Part shown: positions 5,940-49,436 of the stretch, one piece after another
Layout of the letters: each line of letters begins with the position of its first letter
Position numbering within the stretch: position 1 is the first letter of the stretch
Assembly (NCBI RefSeq): GCF_029338515.1
Contig: NZ_CP119988.1
Span: 3,224,001 to 3,288,000 of the forward strand
Reading direction: 5' to 3'
DNA length: 64,000 bases
From: Haloglomus litoreum
Lineage (GTDB): Archaea; Halobacteriota; Halobacteria; Halobacteriales; Haloarculaceae
The notes under the pieces: model-generated
What the model was told of the DNA's origin: nothing
Seen by the model: only the letters and a program-made list of their open reading frames with translations
Database searches by the model: none
Made by a program: the position numbers and the translations under genes

Positions 5940-6024
5940 TGGGTTGGGGCGGGTTGCCGAATTTCAGAAGCGCAGCACCGGTTTCCGATGCGATTGCCGC
6001 TGCTTGGGTGGGTTCAGTTGTCAT
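5929..6024 (-). CDS. Attachment-site ORF, truncated form (31 codons)
   Basis: The ATG at 6024 lies inside the end of the integrase gene (11-bp overlap). The frame MTTEPTQAAAIASETGAALL... crosses the left junction and stops at 5929 after three flank-encoded residues (MEF). At the internal junction the same frame continues to 49 codons (48256-48405). If translated, its C-terminus depends on which DNA is joined to the site. Evidence for translation is only the overlap with int and the open frame. Confidence 0.4.
   Translation of the reverse strand: MTTEPTQAAAIASETGAALLKFGNPPQPMEF
5930..5960. other. Left attachment junction (attL-like)
   Basis: Sequence identity with the internal junction starts exactly at 5940 (TGGGTTGGGGCGGG...). 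Bases up to 5939 differ (ends AAACTCCA here, CTGCAG at 48320). The integrase stop is 74 bp away, the usual int-att arrangement. The core must start at or after 5940, but its length cannot be fixed without the right end. No tRNA gene overlaps the site. Confidence 0.6.
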
Positions 6025-14406: not shown

Positions 14407-14408
14407 CG

Positions 14409-14876
14409 TTAGTTAGCCTCCGGTCCAGTCCACTTTCCGAGCGTAGCCGTGTCGCCACCGTTCGAGGATTCCCAGACAACGCGGACCGTATCACTGTTGT
14501 CTGCATCAACCGTGGCGGTATCACCGGCAGTTACGTCGTTTGACCATCCCGATGGGCTCTCGATAGTGTCGGTTCCATCAGTGACGGAGAGCTGCGAGAC
14601 AGCAATCCCGTCACCACCATCATGCGTGATGCTCAGTTCACCACTGTCGGAGTTGTCACCATTATTTGCCAGTTCGCTTGTGTCAGTGACTGATACACTG
14701 CCGTCGAAGTCGAACGTGAAGCTCGCGGTCGGACTCGTGTTCGAGACCTGGTCCCCGAGACCGAGCACGAACGTGCCGATAACGGCGGCCAGGATGACGG
14801 TTATCGCGACCATCAGGATGACCCCGATGACCGGCGACACCGCGTCGTCGTCGCCAAGTAGGTTGTTGAGTTTCAT
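14409..14876 (-). CDS. Type IV pilin, element array gene 3 (promoter-proximal)
   Basis: A 155-residue pilin starting [18 protein letters not shown], closest in size and position to the promoter-proximal chromosomal pilin at 4004-4477. It ends WTGPEAN. The leader before its ATG is nearly identical to that of the chromosomal array. Pilins carried by a mobile element could change host adhesion, aggregation or virus susceptibility; this is inferred. Confidence 0.9.
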
Positions 14877-15518: not shown

Positions 15519-16388
15519 CTACCGCGGCAGGAACCCGTCCAGCACGGGTGGCGCCCCTAGCAACTCGGCCGCCCGGATATCCAGCCGGATGTTGGTCCCG
15601 GCATCGACCCGGACCTCATCATCCTGCGGGGCGACCGACCGGAGCAGCCGGGCGATAGCCTCACGGCGGCCGTCGTGGTGCATCGCGAGCTGCAGTGGCA
15701 TCCCGCCTCCGGGGAGCGCCGTCCCGCGCTGCCGGACCGCGACCCGGGCGGCAGCCAACCGCACCGGCCGCGGCGCGTCGAGCAGCAGCCACGGCGGGAG
15801 CGACGGCCCCTCGGTCGCGCTCGTCGGCGCCCCCAGGACCGCCAACAGCCGCCCGAGCACCGAGCCATCCCGCTTGGGGACCCACTCGGTCCCGCTGATA
15901 TCGTCGTCGACGTGTCGACGACCCCACTCCAGGCCGAGCACCGAGCCGATGTGCTCGATGTCGGGCTCGGTCCCGTCGGCGACCGACCACGCGGGGAGCC
16001 ACCCCTGCCGCGGGAGCGACCCGCCGACCACGATCCAGACGATGAGCGCCGACAGCGCCCGCAGTGTCGACTCACCCCAGTCGAGATGCAGCCAGCCGTT
16101 GGCCGTCAGCGTGTCCAGAGCCCGCACCGCATCCGGTCGCCCGTCGCCGTCGACCCAGGCGCGAATCCGCCCTCGCGGGAGGTCCAGCGCCGTCGCGACG
16201 GCGCCCGAGCCCTGGTTCGGATGGCTGGCGGAGTACTCGCGAACGCGCTGGTAGTTCTCGACGAGCGTTGCGGCGTCAACCGTCTCGCTGCTGGTCCCGT
16301 AGGTGTCGATGAACCGCTCGCGGACGGCGCCGACGTCGGTCGGGTCGGCGACGCGACGCAGTTCGCCAGCAGGCATTGGCGTGCCCAT
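15519..16388 (-). CDS. HTH-containing protein, possibly homing-endonuclease-like
   Basis: A 289-residue protein. An N-terminal segment (residues 40-90, SASHPNQGSGAVATALDLPRGRIRAWVDGDGRPDAVRALDTLTANGW) is a helix-turn-helix followed by an amphipathic helix. The hydrophobic centre (LSALIVWIVVGGSLPR, GSVLGLEWG, GSVLGRLLAVLG) resembles haloarchaeal proteins with a degenerate LAGLIDADG-type fold, where such cores bind DNA. No catalytic acidic pair can be pointed to. The ATG at 16388 is one of two (the other is four codons in). Confidence 0.5.
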   Translation of the reverse strand: MGTPMPAGELRRVADPTDVGAVRERFIDTYGTSSETVDAATLVENYQRVREYSASHPNQGSGAVATALDLPRGRIRAWVDGDGRPDAVRALDTLTANGWLHLDWGESTLRALSALIVWIVVGGSLPRQGWLPAWSVADGTEPDIEHIGSVLGLEWGRRHVDDDISGTEWVPKRDGSVLGRLLAVLGAPTSATEGPSLPPWLLLDAPRPVRLAAARVAVRQRGTALPGGGMPLQLAMHHDGRREAIARLLRSVAPQDDEVRVDAGTNIRLDIRAAELLGAPPVLDGFLPR

Positions 16389-16533
16389 CTCCGGACGGGC
16401 GTATCAATCCCCGCGTTCCAGTGAGCGAGTATCCTGTGAACCCGCTCACTCATCGGCCGATTCGGGGGTGAACCCGCCTCAATCACCGCGCCCACCCCAG
16501 CGTTTGTGCCGGTCTACACCAGACAAGACGCTC

Positions 16534-17139
16534 ATGGTTCGCGTGGACGATGGCGGCGACGTGACGAAGTGCTGGCTCGACCAGGAGGAACTCTCCCGGC
16601 TGGAACGGGTGGCCGGTCGCGACGACTGGATGCGCGAGGTGGCCATCCAGTTGATGGGCCGGTGCGGCCTGCGCGCTCACGAAGTGCCGTACCCGGCCGA
16701 CGAGCATCTCCGCTGGAGCGAGGAGGGCGAGTGTTGGCTGTTCGAGGTCCGGGGCAAGAACACGAGCGGCGGCGACCGGAAGCTCCGCGACGCCTGGATG
16801 CCTGACCGCGTCGCCGAGGACCTGAACAAGTACACGCGAGAGCGCGACCTCGGCCGGGGCGACCCGTGGGTCCCGCGCTCGACGCCGACGGTGCGGCGCT
16901 GGGTCGACACCGCGACGGACGACATCGCCGACCAGTTGGGCGACGACCGCTGGCGGTCGGTGACCAGCCACGATCTCCGCCGCAGCTGGGCGACCCACCA
17001 CCTCGTCGAGGAGGGCCGAGACGTACGGACCATGATGTCCATCGGTGGCTGGAGTGACTACTCGGCCATCGAGCCGTATCTGAAAGAAGCGACCGAGGCA
17101 CGCATTGGCGAGGTGATGGGAGGCCCAGAAGCCCTATAG
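16534..17139 (+). CDS. Second tyrosine recombinase, short
   Basis: A 201-residue recombinase consisting of little more than the catalytic domain: Arg47 (RCGLRAHEV), Lys75 (RGKN), His146-x-x-Arg149 (SHDLRR), Trp173 (GGWSD) and the nucleophile Tyr182 (EPYL). It lacks the SAM-like core-binding half of the main integrase. The ATG at 16534 begins at the first plausible domain residues; upstream codons are in low-complexity sequence. Such short XerC-like proteins are common on haloarchaeal plasmids and may resolve multimers or invert segments. A GTGAGCG/CGCTCAC inverted repeat lies about 80-110 bp upstream. Confidence 0.85.
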   Translation: MVRVDDGGDVTKCWLDQEELSRLERVAGRDDWMREVAIQLMGRCGLRAHEVPYPADEHLRWSEEGECWLFEVRGKNTSGGDRKLRDAWMPDRVAEDLNKYTRERDLGRGDPWVPRSTPTVRRWVDTATDDIADQLGDDRWRSVTSHDLRRSWATHHLVEEGRDVRTMMSIGGWSDYSAIEPYLKEATEARIGEVMGGPEAL

Positions 17140-32626: not shown

Positions 32627-33253
32627 ATGAGCAAGGTAGCCGGCTACGTCCGCGTCTCGACGGAGCAGCAACGAGAGGAACAGAGCCACGAACAGCAGCG
32701 GGAGAAGCTCACCACCTGGGCTAACCGCAACGACCACGAGATCGAGGTCTTCGAGGACATCGCCATCTCCGGTCAGTCGGATGACCGGCCAGCGTACGAG
32801 GAGATGATGGACCGTCTCGACGAGTTCGACATGGTGGCGGTCAGGGAGCTGTCACGGTTCGGCCGCTCGCTCAAGCGCGTCCTTCAGGATATCGAACGCC
32901 TCGACGAGCACGGTGTCGAGTTCAACTCGATCACGGAGGACTTCTCGACGGACTCGGCGATGGGGACGGCGATGCTCCAGATGATCGGTGTGTTCAACGA
33001 GTTCTGGGCGAACCTCGCCCGGGAGCGGGCGCTGGAGAATGTCCAGCGGCGCCGTGAGAACGGCGAGCCGGTCGGCCGCCCGAAGAAGCTGGACGAGGAG
33101 CAACGAGCGGAGGTGTTCGACCTGCGCCGAGCTGGAGTCTCCTACACGAGCATCGCACGCGTGATGGAAGCCGACCCGGAGACGCCCGACTCGATCTCAC
33201 GCGAGACGATCAGACGCTACTGTAACGATGAGGGCGTGACCCCCGAGACATGA
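32627..33253 (+). CDS. Serine recombinase (resolvase/invertase family)
   Basis: A 208-residue protein with the complete resolvase catalytic domain: nucleophile Ser11 (GYVRVSTEQQ), arginines in VRELSRFGRS, the E-helix region (DFSTDSAMGTAMLQMIGVFNEFWANLARER), then a C-terminal HTH (GRPKKLDEEQRAEVFDLRRAGVSYTSIARVM). It could resolve multimers, which matters for an element found as a tandem repeat. The DNA before it has a GGGGTGG/CTACCCCC hairpin (32554-32572) and AGGGTAGGGTAT, possible res sites. Confidence 0.85.
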   Translation: MSKVAGYVRVSTEQQREEQSHEQQREKLTTWANRNDHEIEVFEDIAISGQSDDRPAYEEMMDRLDEFDMVAVRELSRFGRSLKRVLQDIERLDEHGVEFNSITEDFSTDSAMGTAMLQMIGVFNEFWANLARERALENVQRRRENGEPVGRPKKLDEEQRAEVFDLRRAGVSYTSIARVMEADPETPDSISRETIRRYCNDEGVTPET

Positions 33254-35069: not shown

Positions 35070-36006
35070 GCTCTGGTGAATCGCTTGACTGCGTCGGATT
35101 CGACCGTTAGAACGAGGAAGATGAAGCGGGAAACCGTCGATGCTCTATGTCGAAGATTTCCCGCTTCACAAGCAAAGCCGTCCAGTTAGCTAAAAATGCT
35201 GTTGGTGAGCGAGGCGAAGTCGCCGCCCCCGAAGGGGGTGGCGGCTTCGCCGAGTATGCGGTCGTGTCGCTGCACTGTCTGCGGGTTTACTTGGAGAAAT
35301 CGTACCGAGAAACACTCGATCTGCTGAGCGAGATGCCACAAATACTGGCCGAGATCGGCCTCGACGAGGCCGATCTCCCCGACCACTCGACGTTAGTGAA
35401 GGCGTTTGACAGGCTCAAGACAGCACTCTGGCGCGTGCTGCTCCGACTCTCGTCGGAGCTGCACGACCCGAGCGGACACGCCGCGATCGACGCGACATTC
35501 TTCGACCGCGAGAACGCCAGCAAGCACTACTGCCGCCGGACGAATTACCGCGTCCAGACGCTGAAAACGACCGCTCTGGTTGACACAGAAACGCAAGCGG
35601 TTCTCGACGTTCATTGCTCGACCGGAAAACCACACGACACCCACCTCGGCTGGCAGGTCGCCCGCCGCAACGCGGGCGACCTGACCAGCCTCGCCGCCGA
35701 CAAGGGCTACGACTGGATGGAATTACGCGAGAAACTGAGGGAAGACGGCGTGAGACCGCTGATCAAACACCGCGAGTTCCGGCCCATCGATCACGCGCAC
35801 AACGCGCGGATCGATGGGCCTCGCTACCGCCAACGATCGATGTGTGAGACCGTCTTCTCGGCGATTAAGCGCACGCTCGGCGACGCCGTGCGTGCGCGAG
35901 CATGGTTTCGTGAGTTCCGAGAAATCGTCCTGAAATGTGTCGTTCACAACATCAAGCGAGCCGTCACACCGTGAGATCAAACGCCCTCTGGCGATTCACC
36001 AGAGCC
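35070..36006 (+). mobile_element. IS5-family insertion sequence with 8-bp target duplication
   Basis: A 937-bp element bounded by perfect 16-bp inverted repeats GGCTCTGGTGAATCGC (35070-35085) and its complement (35991-36006). Both sides carry ATTCAAGA (35062-35069 and 36007-36014), the 8-bp target duplication expected for this group (ISH1-like). One intact transposase gene inside, so it is probably active or recently so. It abuts the 3' end of the methyltransferase gene. Confidence 0.9.
35147..35974 (+). CDS. IS5-family transposase
   Basis: A 275-residue DDE transposase: first Asp in HAAIDATFFDRENASKHY, second in LAADKGYD, and the final Glu in the CETVFSAIKRTLGDAVRAR helix (Y/E-R/K signature). 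Length and motifs fit the ISH1 group of IS5. The gene is complete, between inverted repeats with a target duplication. Confidence 0.9.
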   Translation: MSKISRFTSKAVQLAKNAVGERGEVAAPEGGGGFAEYAVVSLHCLRVYLEKSYRETLDLLSEMPQILAEIGLDEADLPDHSTLVKAFDRLKTALWRVLLRLSSELHDPSGHAAIDATFFDRENASKHYCRRTNYRVQTLKTTALVDTETQAVLDVHCSTGKPHDTHLGWQVARRNAGDLTSLAADKGYDWMELREKLREDGVRPLIKHREFRPIDHAHNARIDGPRYRQRSMCETVFSAIKRTLGDAVRARAWFREFREIVLKCVVHNIKRAVTP

Positions 36007-36019
36007 ATTCAAGAGGAAA

Positions 36020-38404
36020 TTACGCTTCTAGTCCCAGTATAGACTCGATTTGTTGGTCAATTTCGGATAGCTTCTCGGCTTCCTTTTCTCCGTCCCCTTC
36101 TCGTCTGGCTGCACACAGGCCCTCGAAGAGTTCGGCCAACTGGCTACAGACAGGCTCGTCCAGTTCTCTCGGATCGATAACCGGAGCGGATTCCAGTTGG
36201 CTGATTTCGAGTTTTTCCAAGCCGCTATAGTCATGGCTGGATTTACTGAGAATTCGTTCAACAAAAGTACTATTCAGATACGCCAGCAGGGCGTCTCGGT
36301 CATGATCCTTATAGTCGAAATCAAGTGAGATGTTGTGGACGTTATTGAGCGTCAACAATCCCATCTCGTTCCGGTAGAATTGGAACCCATTCCGATTCAT
36401 GTACTTACCGAGGATTGGAGTAGGCTCCCGTGAATCCACCCGATACCACGGGTTCCTTCCTGAAACGAGTGTTCCGTCTGTCACGCCCTCCTTTTCACCC
36501 TTCTCCAGATAGTTAAGAACGCTCTGACACTCTATCTCCGACTTATCGATAACTCCCTCCTCATCAAAACAATAGAGCAACCAGACATCATCGCCATTGT
36601 CTCGCCATTCCTCCCAGTCTGATTTCTTGATGTTGAGGATATCGAGTCCTCTCGCAGTACGAAGAATCCGCTCGCGATATTGACGTGGAATCGAATGTCG
36701 GTCTACATCATCAGATGATAGACAGAAGAAATCGTTTTTTCCCGTCGCAATTCCTCGCTTGATGGTCGCGACATCATTGAAAGGGACCAATTCAGGAAAC
36801 TCGCCAATGTCGGTTTCACTAAAATAGTGGGTCCAGCGTTCGGTCGGCGTTAGAATCTCCTGTGCAATCCCTGTCACGAAGTCCACTTCTGGGCGTTCTG
36901 CAAGAGATTCAGTATCCGAGAGGAACTCCTCGGCGTTGCTTGTCGACGGCCATTCATTAACCCGGACGAACTGCGTCTCGTGAGTGGAATCCGGGGAGGC
37001 AGCCTCCAGAAGCAGGATGCTTGGTCTGGTCCGAACTCCCTCAAATACCTCCACACTGTCATCGAGTTGTATCACAGCATGAATTGCGAATCTCCTGAGG
37101 AGATACTGCTTAAGTTTGCGTCCGAAATTCGTATCCATGAATCGGGAGGGAATGATGAATGCTGCTCTTCCTCCCGGAGTTAGGAACTGTGCTGAGTGAA
37201 TCAGGAAGTACCCATACAGTGGAGTTTTTTCAAGGAAATTGAATCCAGTCTCATCAGATACTACGCGATTCAGATCAGACTTCATCTGGTTATCCAAAGC
37301 CTGATGGCGCGAATAGGGAGGGTTCCCAATCACACCATCATATTCTTGCAATCTATCTTTGCCAGAGAATATTGGGCTAAATTGGATGAAGTCGCCTTGG
37401 TGAAGGTCTGGAGAGCCGCCTCCGTCGGCGAGCTTCAGAGATGTCGCTGCCATCGTGATCGCAATCTCATCGATATCGATTCCGGTAAGATCCCGCAGTG
37501 GATGAGCCGCCCCCTTTTCGATTTTCTTCGATAGAACCTGGTAAGACAGCTGGCCCGCACCGATACCAGGATCTAAAACTCGGTCGTCGGAATTTTGGAC
37601 CGTCCAAGATGCCATGAATTCGCTGATGTGGGGTGGGGTGGCGAACTGACCGAGGTTTCGCCGTGACGATTGGGAAACCAGGGCCTCGTATGTGTCGGAA
37701 AGTACGCTAGCGGGGTTTGCAGACCGGATGAATGCATTACGTAATGCTAACAGGATGCTGTCTACCTCGCCTGGGCTATCCTTGACGACCTCGTCGACGA
37801 GGGAGGGTTTGAAACCTTGATTCTCTGTTAGTTGGTGGGCCTTGTCGAAGCATTCGCTCCAGTCCAACTCGAGTGAAAGTGGAGCGAGAGAATCCTCCTC
37901 TTTCTGGTGAAGGGAATATAGCGTCGCCTTCAGAAACCGATTGAAAACAGCGACTCGTGCTGAATAGGATTCAATCGGGGTGTTCTCTGTATTGACTCTC
38001 TCGGTAGCCCACTCCGTCACACTGGTTGTTATGCTGCCGTTGAGCCCTTGTGCAAGTCTCAGGATAGTCTCGGAGAGAAGTTCCGTCACAGTCCGGTCGT
38101 CTATTGTTGAGACTTCCGAGGAGAAATCTATCTGCGTATTCAGGGTCCATCGAAATGAATTTCCGAACTTCTCAGATTCAATTACGCCGAAATCATCCAG
38201 CCGGTGGAGTTTATTGAGAGCAGTCTTAGTGCAACAACCGAGGTTATCCTTCACACCGCTCGTTTTATCCACGTCGTCTAGTCCTACTGTCAATAGGGTC
38301 CGGAAAAGAGGAAATTCGGCACGGTACTGGCCGGTTCTTCTTTCCCGGGTATTCGACATACAGTGTCCATTACAAGCGTTTGTAAAGGCCTTTTCGGACT
38401 CCAT
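36020..38404 (-). CDS. N6-adenine DNA methyltransferase (Eco57I/TaqI class)
   Basis: A 794-residue protein. A winged-helix-like N-terminus (TALNKLHRLDDFGVIESEK) and a helical region lead to the amino-methyltransferase core: FATPPHISEFM, motif I DPGIGAGQLSYQVL, motif II GIDIDEIA, motif III GDFIQF, catalytic motif IV NPPY (GVIGNPPYSRH). The C-terminal half resembles the target-recognition part of M.TaqI/Eco57I enzymes. No PD-(D/E)xK nuclease motif is seen, so it is not an obvious type IIG enzyme. Translation may begin at 38404 or 38359. The gene is A+T-rich, divergent from the kinase operon with a 121-bp shared promoter region, and likely marks self DNA for that system. Confidence 0.8.
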   Translation of the reverse strand: MESEKAFTNACNGHCMSNTRERRTGQYRAEFPLFRTLLTVGLDDVDKTSGVKDNLGCCTKTALNKLHRLDDFGVIESEKFGNSFRWTLNTQIDFSSEVSTIDDRTVTELLSETILRLAQGLNGSITTSVTEWATERVNTENTPIESYSARVAVFNRFLKATLYSLHQKEEDSLAPLSLELDWSECFDKAHQLTENQGFKPSLVDEVVKDSPGEVDSILLALRNAFIRSANPASVLSDTYEALVSQSSRRNLGQFATPPHISEFMASWTVQNSDDRVLDPGIGAGQLSYQVLSKKIEKGAAHPLRDLTGIDIDEIAITMAATSLKLADGGGSPDLHQGDFIQFSPIFSGKDRLQEYDGVIGNPPYSRHQALDNQMKSDLNRVVSDETGFNFLEKTPLYGYFLIHSAQFLTPGGRAAFIIPSRFMDTNFGRKLKQYLLRRFAIHAVIQLDDSVEVFEGVRTRPSILLLEAASPDSTHETQFVRVNEWPSTSNAEEFLSDTESLAERPEVDFVTGIAQEILTPTERWTHYFSETDIGEFPELVPFNDVATIKRGIATGKNDFFCLSSDDVDRHSIPRQYRERILRTARGLDILNIKKSDWEEWRDNGDDVWLLYCFDEEGVIDKSEIECQSVLNYLEKGEKEGVTDGTLVSGRNPWYRVDSREPTPILGKYMNRNGFQFYRNEMGLLTLNNVHNISLDFDYKDHDRDALLAYLNSTFVERILSKSSHDYSGLEKLEISQLESAPVIDPRELDEPVCSQLAELFEGLCAARREGDGEKEAEKLSEIDQQIESILGLEA

Positions 38405-38525
38405 TCTCGTGCCGTATTATTTTAATTAGGATATACACAATTGCTAGACAATTTGAGTGAAAGCATCGGAATCGATGGCTACCAAGAAACTTTAACACGC
38501 GGAGAATAAGGAGAATTGAGTAACC
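38405..38525. promoter_or_regulatory. Divergent promoter of methyltransferase and kinase operon
   Basis: A 121-bp A+T-rich gap. On the plus strand ACTTTAACA (about 38488-38496) is a TATA-like box some 30 bp from the kinase GTG, and AAGGAG (38509-38514) is a ribosome-binding site. On the left, TATTATTTTAATTAGG (about 38416-38430) is likely the leftward TATA region. Shared control of the two arms is plausible. Confidence 0.5.
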
Positions 38526-40991
38526 GTGTCTCAGACAGACCGTGAGGAGATACTAGAATCTGGTGAGACTACCTTCTCTAGCGACAGCAAACTTCTCTCG
38601 GAGATCGGGGAGCGGCTAATCGCAACCCCCGACATCGCCTTAGCCGAGCTCATCAAGAATAGTTACGACGCGGACGCAACGAAGTGCAACATATGGTTGG
38701 AGGATGACCGAGAGACCCTTGTCGTGAAGGACGACGGTCATGGGATGACCAAAGAAGAATTCCTCAACTATTGGATGACCGTCGCGACTACAAGCCGACT
38801 TGAGCAGGAAACCTCCAAGAGATATAATCGGGAACTTACCGGAGCGAAGGGGGTAGGGCGGTTCGCAGTCCGGAATCTCGGACTTGAGCTTGAATTGAGT
38901 ACAGTTGCTAAATACGACGAACATGATGAATATAGGAGGCTGACCGCATATTTCCGATGGGCAGATTTCGAGAGCGGGGAACAATTGGAAGAAGAAAACG
39001 TTGAGTACGTAATTGAGCCAGCGACCGAGTCAGAGGAAGGAACAGAACTCCGCATCTCTGATCTTCAAGACTCTTGGACTCAGGAGGAGTTGGAAGAGGT
39101 CTCCGGAGAGGTTCTCGATATCATCTCGGCACCTTACGAAACGAATCGGTCGTTAATGGACCAAGACGACGAACAAGTCGATCCTGGTTTCTCAGTATAT
39201 TTTGCTCCACCAGGAGAAGGGTCACCCACGAAAAGCGCAGCACAGGAGATTTACGAGCGGTATGTTGCAAAGATAAGTATAGAGATCGAAGCTGACAAGC
39301 TAACCTACGAATGCGAATATCCCTATGGTTATGATGAAGATGAAGCAGAGGAACGAACGTACGAATTTACTCTCGACAGGAATCTAATAGGGGACCTACA
39401 TGGTGAGATACGGTATTTTAACCGAAATTATCCCGGGGTTTTCCGGGGGATGGACAAAATCGACGGACGTTCTGCCCCAAAGTGGCTCAAAGAGAATGGG
39501 GGAATCCGAGTTATTGACAAAAATTTCCGCGTACCACCGTATGGAGACCAAGGGAACGACTGGCTAAATATTTCTGAGTCGCACGCACGTCGAGAGCGGG
39601 CATGGCGTTCGTCCTTTGCTGCCGCTCTTACCGCCGATGATGAGATATCTGACGATGAGGTCGAAGAGAGCCAGCTCAATTTACCTCGGAAGAACCAAGT
39701 TCTCGGAGCACTCCAGGTATCCAGCCACAGACCAGAACATACCAGTGTAGATCGTGGCAGTATCGACCATCTCGTTCCTGCGATGGACCGCCAAGGATTC
39801 GTTGAAAACGACGCGATGAATCAACTGGTGGATGTGGCTCGAGGGGGGTTGGAAATCATTGCCATCTTGGACAGGGAAGAGAAACTCCGAAGGGAGCAAG
39901 CGGAGGCCGAGGACGCTGGTTCGGAGCTCCAATCTGAAATCAAGGAGACGAAGGAGCAATTAGAGGAAGAAATTGATGAGATCGTCGACGAGCTAGATTC
40001 TACCACAGCGGACGAATCCGTCAGCGACGCTGACAATGGTACTACCTCCACCGGTGCCAGCGAGAATGGGGACAGCAGTCTCGGAGACTTCGTTGATACC
40101 GGGGACACCGATACAGGAAGTTCTACACAAAGTTCAGTTTCGGACGCTGGGGGAGTGTCTAGCGAGAAGGTCCGCGAGAAGCTCACCGAAGATATCAAAC
40201 CAGAGATTGAGGAGTCCTACAGCGAATTAGAAGCAAGAGTCCAAGAGTACGAGGAGGCTCAAGAGAACCTACGAACCTCTGTCGAGTCGATGTACCTCAT
40301 GAGCGCAGTAGCTGCGTTCATGACTCACGAGACAGGAGAACTACTTAGAGAGGCGGACAACATGATCGAGGCCTGGGAACAGGTTCCAGAGGAGGAACGT
40401 GACGAAGCGTTCGAGTCGAGATTAGAGACAACAAAAGAGGCAAAGGAGAAATTCAACAAGCAACTGGGTTACGCGAAGCGGTTCATGACTGGTCTTGATG
40501 AAGGGTTACAGAACGAGCTCTTCGTAAATGGCAAATTGGACGAAGTGATTCACCAGTTCGATCACTATACAGAGGAACGATATATCGAGATTGAAAGGAA
40601 TGTCCCACAGCGCCTCAAGACTCCAGAATTGAATCCCAGCATCTACACGGGCGTAATTATGAATCTCTTCACTAATGCTGTTAAAGCCGTTCTAGATGTG
40701 CCAGCAAAGGACCCAGGAAGGATAATCCGATTCGACGCTGAAAATCGGGACGGCTGGCACATACTTCGTGTCTCCGACACAGGTGTGGGGATTCCAGAAG
40801 GAATGGAAGAGCGGATCTTCGACCCGCTTTTCTCGACAACCGATATCTCGGATGAGGGGCCACTCGGGAGTGGTGTCGGTCTCGGACTGTATGTGGTTAA
40901 GCGAGTCGTCGAACGCTCTGATGGACAAATCGAGGTTGTTGAGCCTCCGGAGGGGTTCGAAACCTGTTTCGAAGTTAGGTTCAAACGATGA
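38526..40991 (+). CDS. Dual-GHKL protein: Hsp90-like ATPase plus histidine-kinase module
   Basis: An 821-residue protein, GTG start. Residues 25-115 carry an Hsp90/MutL-type GHKL ATP site: N box ELIKNSYDAD (41-50), DDGHGM (69-74), GAKGVGRFA (107-115). Residues 470-590 are acidic coiled coil and low-complexity linker. The C-terminal third is a histidine-kinase-like unit: H-box FMTHETGELL with His601, N box NLFTNAVKAV (Asn717), DTGVGIPEG (751-759), GSGVGLGLYVV (781-791). Two ATP-binding GHKL domains in one chain are uncommon. With the next gene's receiver domain this looks like a cytoplasmic two-component relay, perhaps sensing foreign DNA. A+T-rich, probably transferred. Confidence 0.8.
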   Translation: MSQTDREEILESGETTFSSDSKLLSEIGERLIATPDIALAELIKNSYDADATKCNIWLEDDRETLVVKDDGHGMTKEEFLNYWMTVATTSRLEQETSKRYNRELTGAKGVGRFAVRNLGLELELSTVAKYDEHDEYRRLTAYFRWADFESGEQLEEENVEYVIEPATESEEGTELRISDLQDSWTQEELEEVSGEVLDIISAPYETNRSLMDQDDEQVDPGFSVYFAPPGEGSPTKSAAQEIYERYVAKISIEIEADKLTYECEYPYGYDEDEAEERTYEFTLDRNLIGDLHGEIRYFNRNYPGVFRGMDKIDGRSAPKWLKENGGIRVIDKNFRVPPYGDQGNDWLNISESHARRERAWRSSFAAALTADDEISDDEVEESQLNLPRKNQVLGALQVSSHRPEHTSVDRGSIDHLVPAMDRQGFVENDAMNQLVDVARGGLEIIAILDREEKLRREQAEAEDAGSELQSEIKETKEQLEEEIDEIVDELDSTTADESVSDADNGTTSTGASENGDSSLGDFVDTGDTDTGSSTQSSVSDAGGVSSEKVREKLTEDIKPEIEESYSELEARVQEYEEAQENLRTSVESMYLMSAVAAFMTHETGELLREADNMIEAWEQVPEEERDEAFESRLETTKEAKEKFNKQLGYAKRFMTGLDEGLQNELFVNGKLDEVIHQFDHYTEERYIEIERNVPQRLKTPELNPSIYTGVIMNLFTNAVKAVLDVPAKDPGRIIRFDAENRDGWHILRVSDTGVGIPEGMEERIFDPLFSTTDISDEGPLGSGVGLGLYVVKRVVERSDGQIEVVEPPEGFETCFEVRFKR

Positions 40992-42085
40992 GTCAATCCA
41001 GCCCAAAGTGCGTGATGGTATTCGAGGATAAGGAAGAAAATCTCTGGGACTTGGTCAATCCCCTCGAGGAGGACCTTGATCCAGACGAATTCTATGTCGA
41101 GAACTTCACGGGAGATAGGTCGGCAAATGAAGACGAGAGCGATGTCGATTTTGTAATGAGAATCTTGGAGGAAGAAGATTATCCAGTCCTCGTAGTTTTA
41201 GATGCAGAACTCAACCAATATATTGAAAGCACCGTAAGGAAGTCGGATGTGAAGGATGCTTGTCTTGAACTGGGTGTTCCTCTCTGTGTGTATCATCGTG
41301 ACGAAGGTGAGTATTCAGACCCCGAGAACATCAAAGAATCAGAAGACCACTTGATCAAATTGGATCCCAAAGAAGGACACGAGCAGATGGCAGAAAGCTG
41401 TGCCATCTTAGCGAAGGGGTTCAACGAGATTCAAGAAAAACTCAAAGAGCGATTGGCCGATGCTGACCCTGAAGATCTCCTTGAGCCGCCATCGGAGTTT
41501 ATGAAGGATATTACCGATGTGCCCGTAAGTGCGAAAGCGAATCTCGACAAATACTCTTGGGGACAGTCAGAGAGCGTTGCAATCCTGAAAGAAGGGGGAG
41601 ATAAGCAAGACAGTATCCGCCGTAAATCCACTGTCCTCGGCTACTGGATCCACAACCAGCTTCTGGAATATCCTGGTGTCCTGCTGAATCCGGTTGCAGC
41701 AGCCTCATATCTGGGGGTAAATCACGAAGTCTTTGCTGAGGATGAAGAATACCATGAACCGCTGGAAGAAGCCCTCTATCAAGGGCCCTTCTCGGGACTT
41801 GATAATTGGTGGTGGAAAGCCGAAATTGATGGCCTACTAAACCGAAATACAACCCCTGAAGATGGTAGCGTCATTTCTGGCAGAGAGTTCCTCTCTCGAG
41901 AAGGATACGATATCGGACCAGTACAATGTTTAGAAGGGCACGATGGAGCAGGATATTATTGCATACTGACGGGAGAGCCAGTCTGTGAGGACGACTCAGT
42001 GAGTCCGGAAGCGTGGATACCGGCTGGTGCATCGATATCGAGGATCTCCGAAGGGGAGTATATGAAACTAAGCGGGTGGGACTGA
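40988..42085 (+). CDS. Receiver-domain protein with unknown output domain
   Basis: A 365-residue protein overlapping the kinase by 4 bp (ATGA). Residues 5-130 look like a REC domain: acidic pair Glu13/Asp14 (VMVFEDKEEN), phospho-acceptor Asp72 in VLVVLDAEL, and Lys124 in HLIKLDP. The remaining 230 residues (with WGQSESVAIL, WWWKAEIDGLL, CLEGHDGAGYYCILTGEPVCED) match nothing I know and are probably the effector. No DNA-binding HTH is apparent, so it may not be a transcription factor. Confidence 0.7.
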   Translation: MSQSSPKCVMVFEDKEENLWDLVNPLEEDLDPDEFYVENFTGDRSANEDESDVDFVMRILEEEDYPVLVVLDAELNQYIESTVRKSDVKDACLELGVPLCVYHRDEGEYSDPENIKESEDHLIKLDPKEGHEQMAESCAILAKGFNEIQEKLKERLADADPEDLLEPPSEFMKDITDVPVSAKANLDKYSWGQSESVAILKEGGDKQDSIRRKSTVLGYWIHNQLLEYPGVLLNPVAAASYLGVNHEVFAEDEEYHEPLEEALYQGPFSGLDNWWWKAEIDGLLNRNTTPEDGSVISGREFLSREGYDIGPVQCLEGHDGAGYYCILTGEPVCEDDSVSPEAWIPAGASISRISEGEYMKLSGWD

Positions 42086-42890: not shown

Positions 42891-43128
42891 TGGATGATTT
42901 AGCACGCCCCGCGGGGCTGAGCGGAGCGGTGTCTATTTTTTCGCCAGTGCCCTTAGGCACACCTCCCTAAGGGGCCCTGCCCGCGAGGTGCAAACGCCCG
43001 TGCCGCCAGCTGTCGCTCGACGGTCGTAATCGCAAGGGACAGGGTGCGAATGAGGGCACCCATCCGGAGCTATCTCGGAGTGGTTTATAAAAGAACCGAC
43101 CGCTGGCCAGTGATGCCTCTACCGAGTC
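42891..43128. terminator. Convergent intergenic region with terminator-like hairpins
   Basis: Between the kinase operon and the leftward replication operon. GCCCCGCGGGGC (42906-42917) followed by a T-run (CTATTTTTT, 42933-42941) looks like a rightward terminator; CCTTAG/CTAAGG (42951-42956 and 42967-42972) is a second hairpin. A TTTATAAAAG box near 43083 resembles a strong promoter without an obvious gene. No other gene seen. Confidence 0.45.
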
Positions 43129-45165
43129 TCAGACGAGGCGGCCGGTCCCCTTGCGGCCGAGGATCTCGGTCTCGACGGCGTTGTTCACCGCGACCTTCTC
43201 GTTCTTCCAGACGCGCTCGCCCTGCTCGTCGTGGTAGGCGACGTGCGCGAACGCGAACTTCCGGACGTCGATGCCGGGCGTGGCGTCGGCGGCCTCGAAC
43301 CCGGCCCGCAGCACCTTGACCAGCTCGTGCCGGGAGAGGTTGCCGCTGGCGAGATCGAGCCGGAGCCCGTCGCGGTGGTGGTCCTGGAGCGTCGCGCCGT
43401 AGCGCTGGACCCACTTGCCGAACGGGGAGTCCTCGGGAACCTCCTGGTCGGCACTCGATAGGAGCGACCGGATGCCGCGCTGGATGCCGTCGAGGTCGCG
43501 TTCGAGGATGGCCATCAGCTCCTGCACCCGGTCCCGGACGATGCTGTCGGCGAAGGAGAGCTGCTGCATCGTCGACAGCAGCGACTCGTACTTCCGGAAC
43601 GTCCGACTGACCGTACTCGTCGACGTGTCGGCGGCGTCGGCGAGCGCCGCCTGGTCCTCGAACTCGCCACCGTCGGCCAGCGCTCGCAACACACCCTGCT
43701 GGTGCTCGGTCGGTGGGTCCTCCAGCATCGCCTTCGTCGCGAGGTTGCGCTCCTGGTCGACGGCGAGGTCGATGGGATCACCGACGATGTCGACCGCCTG
43801 CCGGACCTCCTGCTCCATCGCGACGGGCGCGAAGTGGTCGTCGGGGACCCAGTGCTCGGCCTCGGGCCGGCGACTGAGCCCGGCCCACTGGATGGCGTTC
43901 ACGAGGTACTCCTGCAGCTCGACTGCGAGATCGTCGATGGTCAGCCCACCGTCGGCGTGCTCGGTGAGGAAGGGGATGGACACGTCGTAGGGCGTGTACC
44001 CCCGTGACCACTGGACCTCCAGCTTCGGGTGGTCGGTCGGATGCCCGTCCGGGTCCCGCGCGTCCTCGCGAGCGTTCTTCATGAGGTAGCACTTCAGCAG
44101 CTTGCCGACGCCGTGCCCACTGTAGAGGTTCGAGAGCCCGGTCGGGTTGAGCGAGACGGCGGTCCGCTTGCCCGACACGTCCTCGTTGTCCCACTTCAGC
44201 TCTCCCTGGCCCTGCCGGCGGCTGGAGAAGACAGCGAGCCGCTCCAGCAGGCCCTCGGGGTTGACCAGGTGCTGATCGGCGACCTGCTTCAGCACGCGCA
44301 CGTAGTACGCGAGCCCGGTGATTCGAGAGCGCTCGTGGACGTGATCGCGGGCGAACCAGTCCGGGCGGATGCCGAGCTGGCCGGCGAACCCCTGGATCAC
44401 ATCGAGGAGGTCCTCGCGATCGACGCTCGAGGATTTCACCTCGATGCGAACGCCCTCGGGACAGCCCCGGAGCGAGTCGATGGGCTCGTCGTCGTCGATG
44501 TTGATGCCTTCGAGCGCGGGGCGAATGATGAGCGTGACGCGCCGGTTCAGGTTCGGGTCCGACGCGTCGACGAGCGGCGCGGTGAACTCGATGTAGCTCT
44601 CCCCGCTGTCCTGCGGGCGCGTCTTGATGTTCCCCTGCCAGTACCCCGCGTTCTTGTGGTCGTACGCCTCCGGTTGGATGCCGTGGGCTTCCAGCGACGC
44701 CTCGCTCGCGAACACCCATTCGGTGTCGGCGGCTTCGAAGCTACAGACGAGGTCGGGCTCCCAGCGGTCGAGCAGGAGCCGATACGGGTAGAGGCCGTCC
44801 TCGCCGGGCTCGTCGGTCGTCGGCGTGAACAGCAGCTGCGCGTTCAGCTCGTGGACCTGGGGCTTCACCGTGTCGTGGATGGCCGTCGGCTCGGTGGCGC
44901 CGGGCTCGTCGCCCTCCCAGCGGCCCTCGGCGTCGCTTCGGTCCTCGCAGGTGTGCGTGCGCTGTCCGGTGACGGTCGAGAATAACTCGCGGCACCAGCG
45001 GCAGCCGCTGATGGCGTCGGAGTCCTCGTCGTCACGCTCTGCGTCGCTCGTGTCGGGCTCGGCGTCGCCGAAGACGGCCTCGGCCTGCGCGACCGGGTCG
45101 AGGTCGGCGTCGATGGCCTCCTCGATCTCGTCGTCGCCGACTGGTTCGCGGCGCTCGCGGGCCAT
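43129..45165 (-). CDS. Large haloarchaeal plasmid protein with zinc finger and C-terminal HTH
   Basis: A 678-residue protein. An N-terminal acidic tail and a finger (CRWCRELFSTVTGQRTHTC, about residues 55-73) precede a long central domain with FTAPLVDASDPNLNRRVTLIIRPALEG and YYVRVLKQVADQHLVNPEGLLERLAVFSSRRQGQG. A winged helix follows (HQQGVLRALADGGEFEDQAALADAADTSTSTVSRTFRKYESLL, about 510-555) and a helical end. It resembles the DUF7845-type proteins of haloarchaeal plasmids and viruses, suspected replication or partition factors. Terminal gene of the leftward operon 48263-43129. Confidence 0.6.
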   Translation of the reverse strand: MARERREPVGDDEIEEAIDADLDPVAQAEAVFGDAEPDTSDAERDDEDSDAISGCRWCRELFSTVTGQRTHTCEDRSDAEGRWEGDEPGATEPTAIHDTVKPQVHELNAQLLFTPTTDEPGEDGLYPYRLLLDRWEPDLVCSFEAADTEWVFASEASLEAHGIQPEAYDHKNAGYWQGNIKTRPQDSGESYIEFTAPLVDASDPNLNRRVTLIIRPALEGINIDDDEPIDSLRGCPEGVRIEVKSSSVDREDLLDVIQGFAGQLGIRPDWFARDHVHERSRITGLAYYVRVLKQVADQHLVNPEGLLERLAVFSSRRQGQGELKWDNEDVSGKRTAVSLNPTGLSNLYSGHGVGKLLKCYLMKNAREDARDPDGHPTDHPKLEVQWSRGYTPYDVSIPFLTEHADGGLTIDDLAVELQEYLVNAIQWAGLSRRPEAEHWVPDDHFAPVAMEQEVRQAVDIVGDPIDLAVDQERNLATKAMLEDPPTEHQQGVLRALADGGEFEDQAALADAADTSTSTVSRTFRKYESLLSTMQQLSFADSIVRDRVQELMAILERDLDGIQRGIRSLLSSADQEVPEDSPFGKWVQRYGATLQDHHRDGLRLDLASGNLSRHELVKVLRAGFEAADATPGIDVRKFAFAHVAYHDEQGERVWKNEKVAVNNAVETEILGRKGTGRLV

Positions 45166-45297: not shown

Positions 45298-45807
45298 CTA
45301 CGGGTCCCCTCCGTCAGTGGCGACCGGCGTGGCGTTCGAGACGGCACTCAGCTCGGCGACCGACCGCGTGATCGTCTCGCAGTCGGGGCACCGGTAGCCC
45401 GGCCCCTCCCGGCCCTCGACGACGCTGCCGCAGTCGTCGTGAACGAGGTCGGGGCCGGCGTCCGCTTCCGGCTCGGGGGCGGGCGCGGGCCGGGCTCGGA
45501 CGGCGGGCTCGTCGCGCTCCTTCAGCGTCTTGTCGCGCTGGTTGAGCCAGGCCATGATCTGCTGGCGCGGGCCGCGCTCGATGCGGACCTCGACCGCTTG
45601 CCAGGCGTCCAACACCTCGCGTGAGCGGATGCCCTTGATGCGGGCGTGGACCGCGCGCTGCAGCGTCCGGTCGGTGTGGCCCGGCCCGCGTTCGACCAGC
45701 TCGCGGTCGAGCCAGCGGCCGGGGTCCTCGCCGATGTCGGCCGCGATGGGCTCGCGCCACGCCGGCGTCGCGTCGTCGTCGCCGGCGCTCTGGAACTCAG
45801 ACGGCAT
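45298..45807 (-). CDS. Zinc-ribbon protein (169 residues)
   Basis: Helical N-terminal half (RWLDRELVERGPGHTDRTLQRAVHARIKGIRSREVLDAWQAVEVRIERGPRQQIMAWLNQRDKTL), Pro/Ala linker, then DDCGSVVEGREGPGYRCPDC, a zinc ribbon. ATG at 45807 shares its A with the upstream stop (TGATG). The helical part resembles small replication or partition proteins. Role unknown. Confidence 0.6.
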   Translation of the reverse strand: MPSEFQSAGDDDATPAWREPIAADIGEDPGRWLDRELVERGPGHTDRTLQRAVHARIKGIRSREVLDAWQAVEVRIERGPRQQIMAWLNQRDKTLKERDEPAVRARPAPAPEPEADAGPDLVHDDCGSVVEGREGPGYRCPDCETITRSVAELSAVSNATPVATDGGDP

Positions 45808-46085
45808 CAACCCTCACCCCCGTCGACGACCTGCTCCTGGCTCCCGCCGTCGCTGTGCCAGAGCCCCCAGAGTCGCCGTCTGACCCGCTCCCGGACCCGG
45901 TCACGCTCGGCCTCAGTGAGGTCGTAGCAGGTCGGGCAGTAGTCGACGGTCCGCTCGCGGTACGGATGCCGCACCCAGGCCAGACAGGCCGCACACCGCC
46001 CAGGGCTGGACCGGCCGAACTCCGCGTCGCCGACCTTATCGACCGGCGGGAGGTCCGACGGCGGGTCGGCACCGTCACTCGACAC
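45807..46085 (-). CDS. 92-residue zinc-finger protein
   Basis: Two CxxC pairs (CAACLAW and CPTCYDL) about 30 residues apart, followed by a basic helix (AERDRVRERVRRRLWGLW). A small treble-clef-like nucleic-acid-binding protein. Overlaps the nuclease gene (11 bp) and the 169-residue gene (1 bp). Confidence 0.65.
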   Translation of the reverse strand: MSSDGADPPSDLPPVDKVGDAEFGRSSPGRCAACLAWVRHPYRERTVDYCPTCYDLTEAERDRVRERVRRRLWGLWHSDGGSQEQVVDGGEG

Positions 46086-46578
46086 CGTCGCTCACCTCCG
46101 CGTCCCGGAAGACGTGCGACCACGCCAGCTTCGTGTGCGTACACCGCCCGTCGACCTCGATCCAGCTCCCGCGCAGCTCGTCGACCAGCGACGCCGGGAC
46201 GAGCTTCATGGCCAGGGGGTCGCGGTCGGGATACGGCACCGCAACCACGAACACGTAGACGCCGGCGGACTCCAGCAGCTCGGCGTGCTGCCCCTCGCGG
46301 AGGTAGAAGCGCCCGGTCTTCTCGGCCTGGCCTTGGACAGCGGCGACGCTCTTGATCTCGACGGGCGTGCCCTGCTCGACCAGCGCGATGCCGGCGAACG
46401 GGAGCCGCTCACTTGGCGCGAGGCACTGCTCGGCGATGGCATCGTGCCGGCTGTCTCGCTCGGGCGCGGCCCGAAGTTCCTCGACCCGCTGAATCACCGT
46501 CGCCTCGACGCGCTCGCCGAGGCGTTTCGACCGGGCGAGTCGACTGTCGGCCTCGGGCTGACGGCGGGACACGCTCAT
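46075..46578 (-). CDS. PD-(D/E)xK nuclease-like (Holliday-junction-resolvase fold)
   Basis: A 167-residue protein. A core GIALVEQGTPVEIKSVAA strand pair contains the E-x-K catalytic motif, and GRFYLREGQHAELLESAGVYVFVVAV is the following helix-strand pair of the restriction-endonuclease-like fold. The preceding acidic residue may be one of those in LAPSERLPFAGIAL. It probably processes branched DNA during element replication, in line with the neighbouring clamp. ATGA overlap with the clamp gene. Confidence 0.65.
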   Translation of the reverse strand: MSVSRRQPEADSRLARSKRLGERVEATVIQRVEELRAAPERDSRHDAIAEQCLAPSERLPFAGIALVEQGTPVEIKSVAAVQGQAEKTGRFYLREGQHAELLESAGVYVFVVAVPYPDRDPLAMKLVPASLVDELRGSWIEVDGRCTHTKLAWSHVFRDAEVSDGVE

Positions 46579-47468
46579 GCCCTACCTCCGGACTGCAGGA
46601 TGGGCGCGACGTGGTACTCGGCCTCGGCGACGGGCCGCTGTTCGCCGTGGCGCTCGGCTTTCAGCGTCCAGCGCAGCCGGAAGTCCGTGTCCGCACCGAA
46701 CTGGAACGAGACGACGGCGCCGTCTGGGATGGATCCGACGACATCGCGGACCAGATCGCCGGAGTAGACAGACTCGACCTCGGTCTCGGGCGTCCGGATG
46801 GCGTCCTCGGTCGCGACCGGCGCGTCGACGTTGTCGATATCGCTGTCACCGATGACGTGCAGCGTGCCGTCGGGCTCGCCGCGGACGTGGTACTGGTCGC
46901 TGGTACTCCCGAACCCGTCCACTGCACGGAAGGGAACGCGGGCGTGTCGGGCTGCAGCGACCAGCTGACGCCGGTCGACGGCGGCGCGGTAATCGTAGTC
47001 GCGTTCCAGCTCGGACGCCCGCAGCGTGCCCAGGTCGTCGTAGACGGCGACGGTGCGGTCGACCGGCCCCGCCCGAAGGTGTAGGGGCTGGCCGGGCTGG
47101 TCGACGGTGATCGAGACGGCCTCTTCCGCGTCGGGCTCGGCCAGCCGGGCGGTCTCGTGGAACGGCCGCAGCGCGACGATGCGCTCGGTCGGCTCGTCGC
47201 CGAAGTGCTGGAACTCCTCGAAAGCCTCGGCGAACAGCGTCGTCTCCAGCTGCATCGTTTTCGCGTCGTTGACGACCGAGGCGTGGATGCCGTCGCCGTC
47301 GACACGGAGCGGCGCCTCCGGGTGGACGATGTCGAGCGCGGCGAGCCAGTCCTGGAGGAGCCCTGGCGCGATGACGCCCTGGGTGACGATCTCCGAGGGT
47401 CCCTGTGCAGCGACCGGGTCTGGATACTCGGCGTCGCCGCCCCAGTGGGAGTTTCCGGTGAGGCTCAC
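46575..47468 (-). CDS. PCNA-like sliding clamp
   Basis: A 297-residue protein with the two-domain clamp pattern. Domain 1 includes LLQDWLAALDIVHPEAPLRVDGDGIHASVVNDAKTMQLETTL; an interdomain strand follows. Domain 2 ends with SVYSGDLVRDVVGSIPDGAVVSFQFG.TDFRLRWTL and YHVAPIL, where archaeal PCNA has YL..(M/V)...IP....V.(V/L).(F/L)G...P......Y.(L/M)AP(R/K). It is highly diverged and longer than host PCNA (about 247 residues), so likely an element-specific clamp loading its own polymerase or nuclease. Confidence 0.7.
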   Translation of the reverse strand: MSLTGNSHWGGDAEYPDPVAAQGPSEIVTQGVIAPGLLQDWLAALDIVHPEAPLRVDGDGIHASVVNDAKTMQLETTLFAEAFEEFQHFGDEPTERIVALRPFHETARLAEPDAEEAVSITVDQPGQPLHLRAGPVDRTVAVYDDLGTLRASELERDYDYRAAVDRRQLVAAARHARVPFRAVDGFGSTSDQYHVRGEPDGTLHVIGDSDIDNVDAPVATEDAIRTPETEVESVYSGDLVRDVVGSIPDGAVVSFQFGADTDFRLRWTLKAERHGEQRPVAEAEYHVAPILQSGGRA

Positions 47469-47908
47469 GCCAGCTCACCCCTGTCGAGGTCGTACTGCTC
47501 GTCGAGCAGCCGCGCCAGCACCTCGGCCTCGGCGCCAGCCACCGGGTCGCCCGCGCCACCGAAGGCACCGGGGAACGCTCGGGTACAAGCCCACTGGACC
47601 GCGCGGGGCCGATACCCCTCGCCGTCGTAGTGGGCCTCGTAATCCCGATACCACGTGCGAGAGACCGCGCGGTCCACGTAGAGCACGCGGATCAGGCCGC
47701 GGTCGCCGTCGAGCCCCCGGAACCGGCCGCGGACCATCAGCACGGCGTAGCCGACGTGCTCGGTCGCGTCCCGGTCGGCACGGTCGAAGCGAGCCGCCCG
47801 CCAGCTGGCGGGGAGGGTCCGGGGCTCGGTTGCGGCCCGGAAATCCGCATCGTCGGGGAAGTACGTCGCGAGGACGGCCCCATCTGGCGTGGCGTCGGTC
47901 GCCGCCAT
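47465..47908 (-). CDS. 147-residue protein, unknown
   Basis: No motif recognised. A mixed alpha/beta protein with RGLIRVLYVDRAVSRTWYRDYEAHYDGEGYRPRAVQWACTRAFPGAFG and an acidic C-terminal helix. ATGA overlap with the clamp gene and TGATG overlap with the previous gene place it firmly in the operon; perhaps a clamp or nuclease partner. Confidence 0.55.
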   Translation of the reverse strand: MAATDATPDGAVLATYFPDDADFRAATEPRTLPASWRAARFDRADRDATEHVGYAVLMVRGRFRGLDGDRGLIRVLYVDRAVSRTWYRDYEAHYDGEGYRPRAVQWACTRAFPGAFGGAGDPVAGAEAEVLARLLDEQYDLDRGELA

Positions 47909-48135
47909 CAGGCATCACCCTCGTCGGCCGGCCGGTGAACCCGGTTCCCGTGGGTACCCCGTGACCGGAGGACGGTCTCACCCTCGTCGGGCCCGTCCTC
48001 GGGGAAGCAGTGCTGACACGGCGGATGGAAGGCGAGCAGGCCGCCGGTCGCGGGCTCGGCCCGCCAGTCGCTGTTGGTCCGGCTACAGGCCGGCTCGGGG
48101 CCGTCGTCGGGGCGCCGCTGCTGCTCGACGCTCAT
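47908..48135 (-). CDS. 75-residue zinc-finger protein
   Basis: MSVEQQRRPDDG..., with CQHCF, an upstream Cys, and a C-terminal VLRSRGTHGNRVHRP stretch. A decayed homologue of the same stretch is encoded at about 5650-5730 outside the element. Overlaps both neighbours by 1-4 bp. Confidence 0.6.
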   Translation of the reverse strand: MSVEQQRRPDDGPEPACSRTNSDWRAEPATGGLLAFHPPCQHCFPEDGPDEGETVLRSRGTHGNRVHRPADEGDA

Positions 48136-48263
48136 GGCCGACACCTCCCGTCTTCGCGAGCGGTGCAGCGGGGCGGCTGGTCGGGGTCGAAGCGCTCGCC
48201 ACAGAACCAGCACACCGGGTCGGGGAGGGACCCGATGTCGAGTGAGCGCTGCGGCTCACTCAT
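48132..48263 (-). CDS. 43-residue zinc-finger protein, first gene of the right-end operon
   Basis: MSEPQRSLDIGSL... with CWFCGERF and a second Cys pair (C33, C41 of 43), enough for one zinc site. The ATG at 48263 overlaps the end of the junction-spanning ORF by 8 bp, so it can receive ribosomes from upstream across the attachment site. A decayed homologue starts at 5865. Confidence 0.6.
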   Translation of the reverse strand: MSEPQRSLDIGSLPDPVCWFCGERFDPDQPPRCTAREDGRCRP

Positions 48264-48405
48264 CGGAACGCACCCCCTGAAAAACGGCTTGAGAGGTAAT
48301 GTACCTCTTTTTTACTGCAGTGGGTTGGGGCGGGTTGCCGAATTTCAGAAGCGCAGCACCGGTTTCCGATGCGATTGCCGCTGCTTGGGTGGGTTCAGTT
48401 GTCAT
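48256..48405 (-). CDS. Attachment-site ORF, full form (49 codons) spanning the copy junction
   Basis: The frame starts at 48405 inside the 3' end of int (11-bp overlap), runs through the 48320/48321 junction and stops at 48256 inside the next gene (8-bp overlap). Residues 1-28 come from the left end of the element, residues 29-49 (TAVKKRYITSQAVF...) from the right end. It would be complete only in the circle or in a tandem, linking the integrase operon with the replication operon. A predicted regulatory peptide or only a coupling ORF; translation not shown. Confidence 0.5.
   Translation of the reverse strand: MTTEPTQAAAIASETGAALLKFGNPPQPTAVKKRYITSQAVFQGVRSDE
48292..48308. promoter_or_regulatory. 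Perfect inverted repeat beside the attachment site
   Basis: AGAGGTA-ATG-TACCTCT, followed by TTTTT (48309-48313), 12 bp from the junction. Candidate integrase or accessory-factor binding site, or a rightward terminator hairpin isolating copy 2. It is inside the 49-codon ORF. A decayed partial match (ACCTCTT) remains left of copy 1. Confidence 0.5.
48305..48341. other. Internal attachment junction between copies (attP-like)
   Basis: The junction of the end of copy 1 with the start of copy 2 at 48320/48321 has the sequence expected of attP in the excised circle. A perfect inverted repeat lies just left of it at 48292-48308. The same TGGGTTGGGGCGGG core follows as at 5940. Confidence 0.6.
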
Positions 48406-49436
48406 CGTCAGCCTCCATCGAAAGGCGGCTAACCGATTCCGCCCGGCGTTCGTAGAACTCCTCGTCGGCACCGGCCACGTCGTAGTGCTTCCGGATGACC
48501 TCCGGGCTCGCGTTGACGCGTTTCGCGACGACCTCGACGGGCAGCCCGCGGTTGAGCTGCCAGGTGATCGACCCCGTCCGGATGCGGTGTGGCGAGAGCG
48601 TCGACGGGCAGTGGACGGCCTCCCCACGGGTGAACCAGTCACAGGACTGTCGGAGCTTCCCGTGTGGGCACTCGACGGCCCGGCAGGGCGTGGTGGCGTA
48701 GTACGACCACGAACGCAGGGTGTTCTTACTCGGGCGGCCCTGCGTCGTCGTGAGCAGCGGCCGACGCTTGTGGTCGTCGACCATCTCCGTCCGGTTGAGG
48801 GCGAGATACCGGGTGAGGGTGGTCGCAGTCTCGTCGGGGATGCCGACCAGCCGCTCGCCCCCGGCGCCGTTCTTGAGGGTGGTGCCGGTCTCCGGGCGGT
48901 GGACGAACCGGACCGTGCAGGCATCGGTGTCGATATCCCGGATATCCAGTCCGCGGATGGCGCCGACACGGGCGCCGATGAACCAGGCCAGCTCCAGCAG
49001 GACGTGATGGGTCGTCGCCCGCTCGAAGCCGTCGCGATAGCTGCGGATAATCGCCAGCGCACTGTCCGGCCTCGAGACGCTCGGAGTTGACCTCGTCGCT
49101 CTCGTCGATACTCGGCGGGTCGATCTTCTCGGACAGGCCATCCGCGACGAGTTCGACGCGCTCACAGTACGCGAGGAACTGCCGCAGCGTCGTGAGTTCG
49201 TTCGACAGCGTGACCGGACTGACGCCGGTCGCGCGCCGGTCGTGCTCGTAACTGTCGAGGTCCCAGCCCGAGAGGTCGCGAATCGACTCGATGCCCTCCT
49301 GGTCGTCGCACCACTCGACGAACAACTTGAGCCGGTACCAGTACCCCGAGACGGTCGCCTCGGCCTTGTCGACCCGGAGCTTGTCGAGCCAGCGGTCGAC
49401 GGCCTGGCGGGGGTCGAGGTCGGGGGCACGGCTCAC
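48395..49436 (-). pseudogene. Tyrosine integrase, copy 2, frameshifted
   Basis: Same as the intact integrase at 6014-7054 except for one extra C at 49066-49067 (GTCCGGCC instead of GTCGGCC). The shift falls after about codon 123, before all catalytic residues (Arg156, His283/Arg286, Tyr318), so only the core-binding domain would be made, followed by a long out-of-frame tail. The catalytic part is still open in its own frame. Confidence 0.85.

Follow-up and report, generated by a model that had tools for sequence, protein, structure and literature searches.

The element and its tandem joint

The window analyzed is a 64,000-nucleotide stretch (genome positions 3224001 to 3288000) of the 4.70-Mb chromosome of the haloarchaeon Haloglomus litoreum; coordinates refer to the window unless stated otherwise. 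It contains an element of 42.4 kb in tandem arrangement, with copy 1 at positions 5940 to 48320 and copy 2 beginning at the joint, at 48321, and extending as far as genome position 3314702, the 3' end of a gene for tRNA-Val(GAC) (genome 3314702 to 3314777, outside the window). The 3' end of this gene, the target of the element, carries the att core, which is found as TGGGTTGGGGCGG in an attP-like context at the tandem joint (48321 to 48333, plus strand) and as attL at the left end of copy 1 (5940 to 5952, plus strand). Over the approximately 15.7 kb of overlap compared, the sole difference between the copies is a 1-bp insertion at 49067 in copy 2 (CTGTCCGG versus CTGTCGG at 6686 in copy 1). 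A sample that held both circles and single integrants could have been misassembled as a tandem, and the assembly cannot tell the two cases apart. An earlier note on this DNA had taken the left end as chromosomal and the downstream operon as absent there. The truncated form of the open reading frame (ORF) that it described at this end is present (see below), but positions 5618 to 5726, which adjoin the end, resemble the right-end operon (75% identity over 110 bp, E = 3e-14). Because of this identity, the segment looks more like the decayed remnant of a sibling element at that tRNA-Val site than like plain chromosome. The sibling, the tRNA-Val target, and the frameshift in the adjacent integrase gene had been overlooked in that note.

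The SNJ2-type tyrosine integrase is intact in copy 1 (346 amino acids; 6014 to 7054, minus strand). Its catalytic residues R156, H283, R286, and Y318 are invariant with the SNJ2 integrase, and its nearest relatives among 146 genomes of the family belong to two genomes of the same genus. In copy 2, the gene (48395 to 49436, minus strand) is split into two frames by the insertion at 49067, approximately 670 nt before its stop.

Directly after the joint follows a co-directional replication operon on the minus strand that ends, as in the SNJ2-type layout, in a Rep gene and an origin hairpin. Its first gene encodes a 43-amino-acid CxxC protein (CWFC...C; 48132 to 48263), followed by genes for a 75-amino-acid Cys-containing protein (47908 to 48135), a 147-amino-acid protein without Pfam match (47465 to 47908), a 297-amino-acid clamp-like protein (46575 to 47468), a 167-amino-acid protein that matches PHROG 2095, a group of unknown function (46075 to 46578), and a 170-amino-acid protein with a weak zinc-ribbon match (45298 to 45810). 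The labels "clamp" and "nuclease" given previously to two of these products are plausible, unproven assignments: the first corresponds to a weak Rad9 match (E = 8e-4, below the Pfam cut-off) and the second to PHROG 2095. The "large plasmid protein" of that note is a 678-amino-acid Rep-Arvir (DUF7845) initiator (43129 to 45165; PF25227, E = 5e-63), a class of rolling-circle initiators that was defined with SNJ2 and has DUF7845 as its domain (PMC13107129). It carries KCYLMK opposite the SNJ2 catalytic motif KHYYMK, and Tyr283 of the SNJ2 Rep is essential (PMC13107129); the winged helix-turn-helix (wHTH) part gave a weak, below-cut-off match at residues 487 to 527. Just downstream of Rep lies a putative replication origin hairpin, GTGTGCCTAAGGGCAC (42947 to 42962, minus strand; stem TGCC/GGCA, loop TAAG), the SNJ2 counterpart of which is TGGC-TAAG-GCCA. 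The TAAG loop is also common to HRPV9, HHPV4, PL23, and Harhisp1, and the stem varies by compensated pairs among these four, SNJ2, and the element studied here.

We interpret the element as an integrative replicon of haloarchaea that is inserted at tRNA-Val and combines an integrase of the SNJ2 type with a Rep-Arvir replication module. Searches against Pfam and PHROGs gave no match to pleolipovirus spike or membrane structural genes among the ORFs searched, which included part of the small ones. The cargo at 36020 to 42085 resembles an island for restriction or defence: an N6 DNA methylase gene (794 amino acids) is divergent from two others, one encoding a protein with a pair of HATPase domains and one a companion gene. 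Genes for archaeal type IV pilins are found both within the element (13807 to 14876) and in its left flank (2302 to 4477). The element also holds a second tyrosine-recombinase-like ORF (16303 to 17139), a serine resolvase (32627 to 33253), and a DDE transposase (35147 to 35974).

The joint itself is spanned by a 49-codon ORF, MTTEPTQAAAIASETGAALLKFGNPPQPTAVKKRYITSQAVFQGVRSDE (48256 to 48405, minus strand, ATG start), referred to here as the bridge ORF. Its start overlaps the end of int by 11 nt (int stop, 48395 to 48397) and its end overlaps the CxxC gene by 8 nt (ATG of that gene at 48263), exactly as the earlier note had stated, and the att core lies inside it. At the left end of copy 1, the same ATG opens a 31-codon form with the tail MEF (...PPQPMEF; 5929 to 6024, minus strand), also as described. 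The gene layout thus agrees with the proposal that the complete ORF exists only at joined ends, where int precedes it and a co-directional replication operon follows. The gene that follows the bridge ORF is preceded by a Shine-Dalgarno (SD)-like sequence, and judged by this sequence the CxxC gene may be translated without coupling.

Relatives of the bridge ORF

Because the DNA is GC-rich and the minus-strand frame of the bridge ORF is open as far as 49062, its openness by itself is weak evidence; this extent, together with the frequency of long antisense frames in this region, would fit an open frame that arose by chance. We gathered relatives by their integrase from the 146 genomes of the family, further genome contigs, and phage and plasmid records; scans of viral contigs provided no usable relatives. 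We counted 78 non-redundant loci, each with a recognizable tRNA-type core, and defined a coupled start as an ATG located between -14 and +6 relative to the int stop. Such an ATG was found in 74 of these 78 relatives, which are not fully independent of one another, compared with an expectation of 22.9 (s.d. 3.8) under a model of synonymous recoding and shuffled spacers. Given the start, 39.7 of the 74 ORFs would be expected to be open through the att site with shuffled spacers, and all 74 were. Relatives that share the integrase thus conserve the ORF; a lack of such conservation is what the earlier note had named as evidence against its proposal.

The right-hand part of the ORF was studied in 32 attP forms, of which 11 were natural circular or tandem forms and 21, including the present one, were integrated elements whose two ends had been paired via the tRNA gene and rejoined by script. 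The ORF stops at the start of the next gene in 31 of the 32, mostly through a 4-nt ATGA or GTGA overlap, and those that reach this start represent 29 different combinations of left and right lengths. The sole attP form without a bridge ORF is LSV-48N (L037, 5600 to 6010), in which the gene order is the same. Over the same interval, the other two frames were open in only 9 of 62 cases. When left and right halves were recombined, cognate pairs succeeded in 29 of 30 cases, versus a mean of 12.9 for random pairing, which never exceeded 22 in 20,000 permutations, and 11.3 when the right halves were shuffled. The single cognate pair that failed (PL23) was due to an error of the automatic start-finder, and the TTG start of Harhisp1 was not seen by it; for the count of 32 forms, we assigned these two starts manually. 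One further rejoined pair (G092r) failed and was excluded, since its tRNA gene carries several stacked elements and the two halves probably come from different ones. Taken together, the counts among relatives, the shuffling and mispairing controls, and the rarity with which the other frames are open refute a chance frame by comparison, and we consider that explanation scarcely credible.

Frame, peptide, and palindrome

A number of observations bear on what is maintained by selection. (i) The core is read in each of the three possible frames, even where its sequence is identical (e.g., GGCGGTCCCA). A fixed frame for each tRNA core, by which any left half would fit any right half, was considered and rejected for this reason. 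(ii) Peptides from unrelated elements show no resemblance to one another; where a C-terminal WSA recurs, it is presumably encoded by the SD-like region of the next gene. (iii) Among close-relative pairs, which overlap one another, the left half of the ORF had a pN/pS of 0.71, compared with 0.056 when these pairs were examined at the end of int; the right halves gave 0.74, from few changes. (iv) The loci L077 and L076 are a frameshift apart, and the ORF of L077 is still open. Since neither the core frame nor the peptide is conserved while the ORFs stay open, the data suggest that what selection mainly maintains is a frame that crosses the joint in register and without a break, not the peptide. 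The frame is absent in single integrants, and such selection must therefore act in the circular or tandem state.

The experimental work on SNJ2 permits a comparison with the alternative that what matters is the amino acid sequence of a small functional protein, such as a replication or addiction factor, which the ORF would encode and which would be produced in the circle alone. In SNJ2, ORF26 extends across attP, and its translation was shown with a GFP fusion (PMC13107129); the stability of this fusion, together with the suggestion of a HopBA1-like toxin in SNJ2, is compatible with such a protein. Nonsense mutations in any of orf19 to orf26 stop the rise in copy number that follows excision; in the orf26 mutant, attP still forms and copy number does not rise (PMC13107129). 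A nonsense mutation, however, also removes coupling and causes polarity, and the SNJ2 Rep and origin placed behind a foreign promoter replicate without orf26, although unstably (PMC13107129). Because the orf26 nonsense mutation blocks the rise yet Rep and origin function without orf26, a polar or coupling role would fit better than an essential peptide. The ORFs of the SNJ2 group (SNJ2, HHPV4, pHK2, and Halfgib1) share a GRxRLAxL-like C-terminal stretch, and some peptide function is possible in this group; in most relatives, by contrast, the peptides are unrelated, the core is read in different frames, and pN/pS is about 0.7. We regard a small functional protein as unlikely.

Immediately past the core, toward the replication genes, lies a palindrome (AGAGGTA-cat-TACCTCT; 48292 to 48308, minus strand) with a stem of 7 (shuffle p = 0.02), preceded by an A-rich box. 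Palindromes at this place are enriched family-wide (combined p = 8e-10) and are missing or weak in several members (G103, G074, G114, and G141). For A/T-rich octamers within 25 nt of the core, the enrichment is mild (combined p = 8e-4); in many relatives, a TATA-like A/T box immediately follows the core. From the position of this box before the palindrome, the replication operon may have a local promoter. A stronger form of this idea, in which a promoter inside the core region, made up of the A/T box and a palindromic operator, drives the operon in both states and the ORF is a by-product of dense packing, would account for the enrichment of octamers and palindromes and for the SD-like sequence before the next gene. 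It leaves unexplained the matched frames of halves that lie tens of kilobases apart when integrated, and in SNJ2 the mapped transcription start lies within int and no such box follows the core; we hold it to be very unlikely. The palindrome could equally be an operator or an integrase arm site as an insulator.

A proposed translated bridge and its precedents

The anatomy, the conservation, the compensation between frames, and the lack of peptide constraint are established here by sequence comparison, and in our opinion these data are probably best explained if the ORF is a translated bridge, so that integration splits the replication genes from the int operon and excision or a tandem joint reunites them. 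At this locus, ribosomes that end int would restart at the overlapping ATG of the bridge ORF, cross the att core and the palindrome, and then restart on the first replication gene. Unbroken translation would prevent polarity and let the transcript and its ribosomes reach rep, whereas the integrated right end would lack such traffic. The palindrome may act there as an insulator or terminator that shields the replication operon against transcription from the tRNA gene or the host, and in the circle the ribosomes on the bridge ORF would carry transcription past it. Overlapping genes of Haloferax volcanii are strictly coupled, as found for 9 of 9 pairs (PMC6728339), and archaeal polarity has been attributed, probably, to FttA (PMC12548453). 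The generalization is an evenly balanced proposition: in SNJ2-type elements, be they viruses, plasmids, or islands, the attP ORF would be selected as a content-free bridge, and continuity of the frame would sense the state of the element. Whether the frame is kept in register between ends tens of kilobases apart so that ribosomes carry transcription past an insulator hairpin only when these are joined is, to us, a proposition with about equal weight on either side. If the bridge model is true, the ribosome reads out a change in DNA topology and the small protein is incidental.

The earlier reading of this locus was thus largely right, and it was not new, as the architecture had been published. 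In 2021, attP-bridging CDSs located between int and a gene for a CxxC protein were described for the pleolipovirus-like proviruses Halfvol1, Halfgib1, Humcor1, Harhisp1, SNJ2, HRPV-9, and Halfvol2, and a regulatory protein was proposed as their product (PMC7911831). As in those cases, the ORFs described here start near the end of int, contain attP, end at or over the CxxC gene, are complete only in the circle, and vary in sequence; the bridge ORF of the present element shows these traits, being close to the end of int and on the same strand, holding the core, and overlapping the CxxC gene. Unlike the proviruses of 2021, the present element measures 42 kb, has its joint in a chromosomal tandem, and has no pleolipovirus structural gene recognized among the ORFs searched. 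In 2026, the restoration of an int-orf26-rep operon by excision was shown experimentally for SNJ2, which replicates only after excision; excision brings int and orf19 to orf25 together in a single transcript, whose start lies 419 nt inside int (PMC13107129). The order int, attP ORF, CxxC and further small genes, DUF7845 Rep, and origin hairpin, as well as its splitting by integration, is common to SNJ2 and the present element. The peptides of the two ORFs are unrelated, and transcription, translation, and mutants were tested in SNJ2, whereas our data consist of sequence. The claim that the state of the element would control the replication genes without a dedicated switch protein was too strong, as SNJ2 also has a lysogeny regulator region (orf4 to orf10). 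Excision-gated read-through is classical in Tn916 (PMC11658703), where circularization likewise gates transcription across joined ends and an insulator lies near one end; Tn916 differs in being bacterial, in carrying conjugation genes, and in achieving read-through by an antiterminator RNA, with no translated bridge ORF. As far as a limited literature search shows, the family-wide matching of frames and the absence of peptide constraint are additions to this literature, and the switch known from pleolipoviruses now also covers a tandem island of 42 kb and many divergent elements in haloarchaea.

The tandem arrangement joins the replication operon of copy 1 to the int gene of copy 2 on the chromosome, and the int that feeds the joint at 48320/48321 is therefore the frameshifted one. 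Because of this frameshift, coupling from a full-length int to the bridge ORF is probably lost or impaired in this copy; a transcript start inside int similar to that of SNJ2 would fall after the frameshift. Related arrangements were observed in plasmids and other loci of the survey. In a Haloarcula marina plasmid (L039, 8398 to 8563), a 165-bp duplication comprises the end of int and the att core; in its first copy, the bridge ORF is still open and ends beside the second. A similar duplication is present at locus L082. In a Halomicrobium urmianum plasmid (L171, NZ_CP084093.1), the int-att-CxxC layout is repeated in at least three tandem copies with a period of 14,077 bp.
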